This document shows, in pieces, positions 11,015 through 44,007 of a DNA stretch of 64,000 nucleotides (within the stretch, counting starts at the first letter, position 1; each line of letters starts with the position of its first letter). Origin of the DNA: an uncultured Pelagibacteraceae bacterium (GTDB lineage Bacteria; Pseudomonadota; Alphaproteobacteria; Pelagibacterales; Pelagibacteraceae); the NCBI GenBank assembly GCA_902570695.1, contig CACFZE010000004.1, positions 38,989 to 102,988 of the forward strand. Reading direction: 5' to 3'. The notes beneath the pieces are model-generated. The model searched no databases. It saw only the letters and a list, made by a program, of their open reading frames with translations, and was not told the origin of the DNA. Position numbers and translations under genes: made by a program.

Positions 11015-11737
11015 ATGGCTGGACACTCACATTGGGCGGGTATTAAACATAAAAAAGGCAAAGCTGACAAACAGAGATCAAAAATTTTTTCTAAACTCTC
11101 TAGAGAAATCACTGTAGCTGCAAAACTAGGAGATAAGAATCCCGATATGAATTCGAGATTAAGATCAGCAATACAAGCAGCCAGATCAGCTAACATGCCA
11201 AAAGAAAATATTGAGAGAGCAATTGAAAAGTCTTCTAACAATGATCAATCAAATTTTGAAAATATTAGGTATGAAGGTTTTGGACCTAGCAAATCTGCTG
11301 TAATAGTTGAAGCATTGACTGATAATAAAAATAGAACTGCTTCTAATATAAGAACAATATTTTCGAAAAATAACGGTTCTTTAGGAACCCAGGGTTCTGC
11401 ATCACATAATTTTCAAAGATTGGGTGTAATTAAAATAGATAAAAATGAAATTGAACAAGATAAAATTTTTGAATTGGCAATCGAGTCGGGTGCAAATGAT
11501 TGTATATCTCGTGATGAATTTCATGAAGTGCATACGGATATCGATGAAATATATGAAGTAAAAAAAAAATTTGAAAAAGTTATTGCAAATTTTCTTTCTA
11601 CCGAAATCGAGTGGCTACCCATAAATAAGGTATCTCTTAAAGGTGAAGAAAATCAAAATATGGTAAAATTTTTAGAAACTCTTGACGATGAGGATGATGT
11701 ACAAAATGTTTATACAAATGTTAACTTTGAAGATTAA
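11015..11737 (+). CDS. yebC: YebC/PmpR family protein
   Basis: MAGHSHWAGIKHKKGKADKQ at the N-terminus is the YebC hallmark, followed by SRLRSAIQAARSANMPKENIERAI and YEGFGPSKSAVIVEALTDN. The 240-aa length is normal. Members have been reported as DNA-binding regulators and, more recently, as factors helping ribosomes through proline stretches; which applies here is open. The stop codon is immediately followed by the ATG of the RuvC-like nuclease. In most proteobacteria yebC is followed by ruvC, ruvA and ruvB. Confidence 0.95.
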   Translation: MAGHSHWAGIKHKKGKADKQRSKIFSKLSREITVAAKLGDKNPDMNSRLRSAIQAARSANMPKENIERAIEKSSNNDQSNFENIRYEGFGPSKSAVIVEALTDNKNRTASNIRTIFSKNNGSLGTQGSASHNFQRLGVIKIDKNEIEQDKIFELAIESGANDCISRDEFHEVHTDIDEIYEVKKKFEKVIANFLSTEIEWLPINKVSLKGEENQNMVKFLETLDDEDDVQNVYTNVNFED

Positions 11738-12235
11738 ATGATTATTGTTGGAATTGATCCAGGAATAGCAGGTGCTATCTGTTTTTTTTCTAGTGGGAAT
11801 GTTATTGATGTAATCGATATGCCTACAATGGCTGAAGGAAAAAAAAATAAAAAACAAGTTAATGGTAGGCAAATTTATAATGAAATATTGCTAATAAAAA
11901 ATAAATTTAAGAATGAAAAAATGAGTGTAATAGTCGAACAAGTTTCTGCTATGCCAGGACAAGGTGTAACAAGCATGTTTAATTTTGGACAATCATTTGG
12001 AGTAATTAAAGGCATATGTTCTGCAATGGAGCTTCCAATTTTTTATGTTAGACCAGCAAAATGGAAAAAACATTTTAATTTGATTAATTCTGAAAAAGAT
12101 GCCAGTCGAACTAAAGTAATAGATATGTTTCCTAGAATTTCTAATAAGTTATCAAGAAAAAAAGATAATAATAAAGCAGATGCTATTTTAATTGCTCAGT
12201 ATTTTGAAAACACAAGAGAAAACAACGATAACTAG
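11738..12235 (+). CDS. RuvC-like RNase H-fold nuclease, compact type
   Basis: RuvC-type catalytic acids can be placed in order: Asp in IVGIDPGIAGAI (residue 6), Glu in VIVEQVSAMPGQG (about residue 67), and Asp residues in KKDNNKADAILIAQYF near the C-terminus. The middle (SMFNFGQSFGVIKGI, VRPAKWKKHF, KDASRTKVIDMFP) resembles the short phage and bacterial RuvC-like group rather than classical RuvC. At 165 aa it is close to RuvC size. It begins directly after the yebC stop, the normal ruvC position, yet ruvA and ruvB do not follow: tolQ is next. A Holliday-junction resolvase role is inferred. It was probably acquired by displacement of the original gene. Confidence 0.8.
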   Translation: MIIVGIDPGIAGAICFFSSGNVIDVIDMPTMAEGKKNKKQVNGRQIYNEILLIKNKFKNEKMSVIVEQVSAMPGQGVTSMFNFGQSFGVIKGICSAMELPIFYVRPAKWKKHFNLINSEKDASRTKVIDMFPRISNKLSRKKDNNKADAILIAQYFENTRENNDN

Positions 12236-12249
12236 ACTATTAGAGTTTT

Positions 12250-12278
12250 TTGAAGACAAATTAATGACATATTTTAAT
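12250..12278 (+). promoter_or_regulatory. Putative promoter of the tol operon
   Basis: TTGAAG (12250-12255) and TTTAAT (12273-12278) are separated by 17 nt in the 56-bp gap between the RuvC-like gene and tolQ. The predicted start site near 12285 would leave a leader of about 7 nt before the tolQ ATG. Matches are 4/6 and 5/6 by eye. Confidence 0.35.
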
Positions 12279-12291
12279 GGGAAACGATTGA

Positions 12292-12966
12292 ATGGAAGCA
12301 GATATTGCAACGCAAAGTTTAGGTTTAGCAAGTAACACAGATTTTTCTTTAATTAGTTTATTTTTACGTGCGGATATTATTGTCAAGTCAGTAATCATAA
12401 TATTAATTGTAAGTTCTATTTATTCATGGGCAATAATATTTGAAAAAATAAGAATGTTTAGAAAAATTAATAAAAGCGCAGAGGAATTTGAAGAGAAATT
12501 CTGGAAATCAAAGTCTGCTGAAACATTTTATAACAGTCTGCCTTCAAATATTGAGGATCCTATGGCAAAATTATTTAAAAGTTCTATGCAAACAGTTATA
12601 AAAACTAGATCAAAATCAAATTTATCTGAGAGACTATCTAGTGTTTTAGAAGTAAATATTGAAAAACAAATGGTAGCAGTTGAAAAGTATAATAGTTTTT
12701 TGGCAACTGTTGGATCGACAGCTCCATTTATAGGATTGTTTGGAACTGTTTGGGGAATTATGAATTCATTTCAATCGATTGCAATTTCAAGAAACACTAG
12801 CCTTGCAATAGTTGCACCAGGTATTGCTGAAGCCTTATTTGCAACCGCACTTGGATTATTAGCAGCAATTCCTGCTGTAATTGCGTATAATAAATTTAAT
12901 TCAGACTCTAGAAAATACTCACAAAAATTAGAAAATTTTTCAAAAAGATTTTTATCAATTATTTAA
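12292..12966 (+). CDS. tolQ: Tol-Pal system proton channel subunit TolQ
   Basis: This 224-aa member of the MotA/TolQ/ExbB family has three membrane segments: about residues 25-50 (IIVKSVIIILIVSSIYSWAI), 135-160 (VGSTAPFIGLFGTVWGIMNSF) and 170-195 (LFATALGLLAAIPAVIAYNKF). The conserved GLFGTVWGI and the Thr/Ala-rich third helix belong to the proton path. With TolR it energises TolA to drive outer-membrane constriction at division. It directly abuts tolR. No ybgC thioesterase gene precedes it, unlike in many proteobacteria. Confidence 0.95.
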   Translation: MEADIATQSLGLASNTDFSLISLFLRADIIVKSVIIILIVSSIYSWAIIFEKIRMFRKINKSAEEFEEKFWKSKSAETFYNSLPSNIEDPMAKLFKSSMQTVIKTRSKSNLSERLSSVLEVNIEKQMVAVEKYNSFLATVGSTAPFIGLFGTVWGIMNSFQSIAISRNTSLAIVAPGIAEALFATALGLLAAIPAVIAYNKFNSDSRKYSQKLENFSKRFLSII

Positions 12967-43699: not shown

Positions 43700-43963
43700 T
43701 TATTAAGGGGCGTTCTGTTGCCAGGTGCCCCAAACCCCGTAACTTAATTAATAAATTAATTAAGCTGCAAGTGCGTAACTTTCGTTAGCATTTATAAATT
43801 AGCCCTTCACGGCGGAACAATACCGAACGAAAGAATAACTTTTAGTCATCCGTCGATCCTAATTCACCCCCATAAGTTGAAAATGGTGGAGGTGGTGGGT
43901 ACTGCCCCCACGTCCGTAATGGTTATTACGAAATTCGTTTATCGTCATAGTTGGAAAACCAAC
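43700..43963 (-). ncRNA. ssrA: tmRNA, circularly permuted two-piece form
   Basis: The 319-bp space between tRNA-Leu and thyX holds ssrA on the minus strand. The acceptor piece comes first and ends CACCTCCACCA (CCA at 43884-43886). After a 12-nt intervening loop, the coding piece begins at 43871 with GGGGGTGAATTAGGATCGACGG, the permuted equivalent of the normal tmRNA 5' end. GGGGGTG pairs with CACCTCC to rebuild the acceptor stem. AACGAA..AATAAC in the acceptor piece pairs with GTTATT..TTCGTT in the coding piece as the long helix. The tag reads ANESYALAA then TAA (43760-43789). A GGGGC/GCCCC hairpin (43707-43731) closes the 3' side. Exact ends are inferred. Confidence 0.9.
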
Positions 43964-43969
43964 ATTAAT

Positions 43970-43997
43970 AATATAAAACCAAACTCAACAGATTCAA
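43970..43997 (-). promoter_or_regulatory. Putative promoter of ssrA
   Basis: On the minus strand TTGAAT (43992-43997), a 16-nt spacer and TATATT (43970-43975) predict a start at about 43963, exactly where a GTTGG-TTTT-CCAAC hairpin begins. The promoter lies inside the short thyX upstream region, so the two genes share this segment. Confidence 0.45.
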
Positions 43998-44007
43998 TAT
44001 ATTATTC

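Follow-up and report, generated by a model that had tools for sequence, protein, structure and literature searches.

RuvABC is near-universal in bacteria; phage-type resolvases are able to debranch structures other than the Holliday junction. Among the described systems closest to the locus considered here is MOC1, a chloroplast enzyme of plants, whose catalytic residues in tobacco (NtMOC1) are D116, E175 and E258, with Tyr180 and Asp183 responsible for base recognition (PMC7078210), and whose catalytic lysine in maize (ZmMOC1) is K229 (PMC11183143). A different precedent is offered by the phage-type resolvase RusA of E. coli, which efficiently replaces RuvABC if RecG is present (PMC5055574, PMC4125073), RecG itself being able to process junctions (PMC4125073). 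No description of a resolvase replacement in SAR11 was found in the published literature searched, beyond whose reach most subscription papers lay.

In Pelagibacteraceae, the place and the job of ruvCAB have very probably both been taken over by a resolvase of the phage/MOC1 type, metal-dependent, putatively dimeric and with an RNase H fold, which would operate without RuvAB and leave RecG as the remaining candidate for branch migration. The window, a 64,000-nucleotide stretch of DNA from an uncultured member of the family, belongs to a genome of 1.30 Mb (27 contigs, 97.4% complete), and within it the ruvCAB slot is flanked upstream by yebC (TACO1/YebC family; 11015..11737, + strand; Pfam PF01709, E 5e-53, and PF20772) and downstream by tolQ (12292..12966, + strand; Pfam MotA_ExbB, E 7.5e-38), which is followed by other tol-pal genes. 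Between these flanks lies an open reading frame encoding a 165-residue protein (11738..12235, + strand), which begins at the base next past the yebC stop, with no gap, and is separated from tolQ by 56 bp (12236-12291). Open reading frames and Pfam matches thereby confirm the order given by an earlier note on this DNA, in which yebC is followed without a gap by a RuvC-type nuclease and then tolQ; of the span assigned there to the nuclease (11738-12291), the start stands, and the end takes in the 56-bp gap beyond the stop of the reading frame at 12235. The gene ybgC, expected in the earlier note after ruvB, is absent from the window locus (12236-12291). Elsewhere in the window, a two-piece (permuted) alphaproteobacterial tmRNA gene is found on the minus strand (43704-44001; Rfam RF01849, 228 bits).

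The slot protein is a predicted Holliday junction resolvase of the MOC1/phrog_1770 type, as assigned from the reading frame, profile matches and a fold model. Residues 1-159 match phrog_1770, annotated ‘Holliday junction resolvase’ (E 1e-36), and the scores against RuvC families fall below the cut-off for Pfam PF02075 (19.9 versus 22.2 bits) and far below it for NCBIfam NF000711 (29.5 versus 163 bits). Plant chloroplast MOC1 enzymes are the best PDB relatives by single sequence (E 2e-16, versus 0.025 for bacterial RuvC), as is NtMOC1 by profile (E 5.5e-34, versus 0.0015), and Foldseek comparison of the AlphaFold (AF2) model (pLDDT 94.1, pTM 0.90) with the PDB placed MOC1 structures in all of the first 12 matches (TM 0.77-0.85; ZmMOC1, 0.85), with RuvC next. 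MOC1 (NtMOC1, PDB 6kvn; ZmMOC1, 6jrf) thus has in common with the SAR11 protein its predicted fold, the length of the nuclease domain, and the catalytic acids and lysine, although the two are only ~26-30% identical, and the one is a chloroplast enzyme whereas the other is encoded on a bacterial chromosome beside yebC. RuvC of the RuvABC resolvasome has in common with it the chromosomal slot, an RNase H fold and catalytic acids; the SAR11 protein differs in lying under both RuvC family cut-offs, in a genome without RuvA or RuvB.

Conservation of the active site was read from an alignment of 34 divergent rows, with codon positions checked. The MOC1 tetrad D116/D118/E175/E258 and its lysine are matched at four of these five positions: D7 (codon 11756..11758, + strand), the first catalytic acid, aligned with D116 of NtMOC1; E67 (11936..11938, + strand), aligned with E175; D148 (12179..12181, + strand), the third catalytic acid to be kept, aligned with E258; and K120 (12095..12097, + strand), aligned with K229 of ZmMOC1. 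D7, E67 and K120 are invariant across the 34 rows, and D148 is invariant in SAR11 and either D or E in phage relatives, the predicted roles following by homology (PMC7078210; PMC11183143 for the lysine). The second metal-binding Asp (D118 in tobacco) is replaced by Gly9 in the SAR11 protein and in the whole phage group; RuvC, too, is without an equivalent of this residue (PMC11183143). The acids on which the earlier note made its reading depend (D7, E67 and D148) are hence present in alignment and AF2 model alike. At the position of the base-recognition loop (M72-P-G-Q75, codons 11951..11962, + strand; placed from alignments, with loop residues from PMC7078210), Met72 stands in place of Tyr180 and Gln75 in place of Asp183; with these base-reading residues altered, the specificity of MOC1 is not transferable to the SAR11 protein, the cutting-site preference of which should differ from that of the tobacco enzyme.

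The gene is carried by 61 Pelagibacteraceae genomes of the order sample. Named relatives that carry it, Candidatus Pelagibacter ubique HTCC9565 included, belong to Pelagibacteraceae, which places the window in SAR11. In 122 of 122 Pelagibacteraceae loci, a count that includes some genomes twice, yebC lies directly upstream and tolQ directly downstream, with a yebC-resolvase gap of -10 to +11 bp (mostly -1 to +9); in a few of these loci, from some other SAR11 genera, ybgC is retained between resolvase and tolQ, as would be expected if the slot is where ruvCAB once lay. Three Pelagibacteraceae genomes without the resolvase were first read as losses, a reading rejected in favour of assembly gaps, two of them being without yebC too and one having yebC at a contig end. 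The resolvase is under purifying selection in the family, with dN/dS values of 0.05-0.17 against close relatives (pairs with more than two changes).

SAR11 appears to have lost RuvA, RuvB, RuvC and RadA. No profile match to RuvC was obtained in the window genome, nor in any of 117 genomes of the order; RuvA (TIGR00084) was found neither in the window genome nor, above cut-off, in 58 order genomes, and RuvA fragments of 18 bits, covering only profile residues 109-140, were set aside as helix-hairpin-helix motifs. RuvB (TIGR00635) had no match at E<=1e-40 in the window genome, and by profile search the full protein is absent from the four Pelagibacteraceae genomes of the class sample, in which RuvB was found in 330 of 367 Alphaproteobacteria. 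RuvB_N gave only weak matches in the window genome (no more than ~31 bits, within long AAA+ frames); such matches, present in all but one of the 117 order genomes, were rejected as RuvB at <=34 bits versus ~450 bits for genuine RuvBs in the class-search listing, and sit in AAA+ frames of ~425 and ~555 residues, the sizes of ClpX and DnaX. RadA/Sms is likewise without a profile match in the window genome and in the 58 order genomes (0/58). RecG, on the other hand, was identified in the window genome (G000:C7:73242-75092, E 5.7e-192) and is full-length in nearly all 58 order genomes, missing only from some assemblies of the sister family f2 with 83-92% completeness or less. The absence of ruvA and ruvB, which the earlier note had seen at the locus, therefore extends to the whole genome as searched with the RuvA, RuvB_N and RuvB TIGR00635 profiles, with no complete ruvCAB locus elsewhere, and with RecG alone present of the four proteins it had named (RuvA, RuvB, RecG, RadA). 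In f2 genomes (G006:C11, G004:C2 and others), recG adjoins a divergent gene of ~800 codons, whose product matches the RecG model strongly in the helicase domain.

Relatives of the SAR11 protein occur in 119 phage records and at least 573 viral stretches, identical at up to ~46% of positions along almost the whole protein; together with the phrog_1770 match, these bear out the phage-like character first read from the sequence. The phage phrog_1770 proteins (Salmonella phage epsilon15, Planktothrix phage PaV-LD and others) also have in common with the SAR11 proteins the motifs AMPGQGVTSMF and KDxSR, which are not those of RuvC, although the SAR11 proteins form one clade of their own (support 99/98) and are fixed housekeeping genes. 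In the best tree, a 100/100 branch separates RuvC from the SAR11 proteins; as the AU test does not reject a tree that places the two side by side (p 0.21), a phage origin of the SAR11 resolvase is likely, not proven. The protein could instead be the ancestral alphaproteobacterial RuvC, fast-evolving after the loss of RuvAB and merely phage-looking, and its chromosomal slot, its weak matches to PF02075 and NF000711 and the unrejected tree are all compatible with such a descent; this is nevertheless unlikely, given that those matches lie below curated cut-offs, that the motifs are common to phage proteins and not RuvC, that the 100/100 branch intervenes in the best tree, that MOC1 is ahead of RuvC both by profile and by fold, and that the PDDEXK proteins filling the slot in other lineages cannot be RuvC.

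Outside SAR11, MOC1-like proteins are found in only 4 of 367 class genomes, of which f119 alone has the yebC slot context, at least two of the other three carrying the gene on a phage- or integrase-like stretch. The f119 protein is placed elsewhere among phage sequences in the tree, and one shared acquisition with SAR11 is disfavoured, though not rejected (AU p 0.055). Sporadic alphaproteobacterial MOC1-like genes (L070, L071) have integrase, SSB-like or recombinase genes in their vicinity, a setting like that of mobile elements.

The contents of the slot were read in those class genomes that gave no RuvB match, which were then checked for RuvC. The sister family f2, without RuvC, RuvA and RuvB, has in its yebC-tolQ slot a protein of 123-127 residues matching PDDEXK_15 above cut-off, Hjc weakly and phrog_244 (E 2e-20), with viral relatives of up to 58% identity (53% for a Roseobacter phage protein); from these matches, it is a predicted Hjc-like PDDEXK nuclease, of another fold than the SAR11 resolvase. 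In f25 and f32, which have neither RuvB nor RuvC, the slot protein (102-122 residues) matches phrog_2002, annotated ‘Holliday junction resolvase’; archaeal Hjc resolvases make up the top 17 matches (E 0.01-0.1) to the model of this type of protein, itself moderate, and viral contigs carry relatives of 59-68% identity, in some cases next to a gene resembling a terminase. Two further lineages without RuvB or RuvC are f51, where the slot protein matches PDDEXK_15 (E 2e-21) and has 44% identical relatives in jumbo phages, and f119, where a second MOC1-like protein is followed by ybgC and tolQ. In f46, f120, f109 and f86, with RuvC in the slot, yebC is followed by the ordinary ruvC gene; f135 (G249, L157; 1.9 Mb, 99% complete) has no match to RuvC or RuvB, and no resolvase was seen after its yebC, on a short contig.

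Taken over Pelagibacteraceae, f2, f25, f32, f51 and f119, the slot thus holds, at one chromosomal position, resolvases of three families or more and of no fewer than two folds. In-place displacement of ruvC with loss of ruvAB, one of two explanations put forward in the earlier note, is supported by the position of the gene and strengthened because resolvases of different folds fill the same slot in related RuvABC-lacking lineages; SAR11 is probably one case of the repeated replacement of ruvCAB in place by phage-type resolvases. A single clade of RuvABC-lacking lineages in the YebC tree has an AU p of 0.11, and ruvABC may accordingly have been lost once or several times. More broadly, the yebC-tolQ interval is probably an exchange slot in streamlined Alphaproteobacteria, where RuvABC (together with RadA in SAR11) was lost and its place filled by unrelated resolvases of phage type (at least two folds, three families), yielding a one-gene system for junction resolution in which branch migration has no dedicated helicase but RecG.

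Under the proposed takeover, an ancestor of Pelagibacteraceae would have acquired the resolvase gene from a phage or from a mobile element of another kind. Joint molecules would presumably be made by RecA; RecG, beside which no dedicated branch-migration helicase was identified, may then move or remodel the junctions; and the resolvase, as a putative dimer without a RuvAB platform, would cut two opposing strands at the crossover, resulting in symmetric cleavage of the four-way junction. E. coli RusA follows the same proposed logic of a stand-alone phage-type resolvase with RecG instead of RuvABC (PMC5055574), but belongs to an unrelated family, is prophage-encoded and is normally silent, whereas the SAR11 gene is fixed in a housekeeping slot. 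The gene content of this bypass is matched in the window genome, with RecG present and RuvABC absent, and that of SAR11 would by analogy match the RusA-plus-RecG state made permanent, the resolvase functioning in cells without RuvAB and with RecG. It is very unlikely that the gene is a phage-derived nuclease kept for defence, phage interference or another purpose, while another enzyme resolves the junctions or RecG and topoisomerases dissolve them: the debranching ability of phage-type resolvases, the junction processing by RecG and the omission of the YqgF/RuvX, RusA and RecU families from the resolvase profile searches of the genome give this some room, but the gene is present in every sampled Pelagibacteraceae genome with an assembled locus, is packed right up against a housekeeping gene upstream, evolves under purifying selection itself, and occupies a slot that in other lineages is filled by other resolvases.

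SAR11 ranks with the most abundant of cell lineages, and much recombination has been reported for it; the link between its high recombination rates and this resolvase set-up, suggested in the earlier note, is a hypothesis. The readings of the slot provide function predictions for several unnamed small proteins, and its repeated filling suggests that a core function was donated by phages or other mobile elements; one slot filled repeatedly by different phage resolvases constitutes a natural experiment on the minimal needs for finishing recombination.
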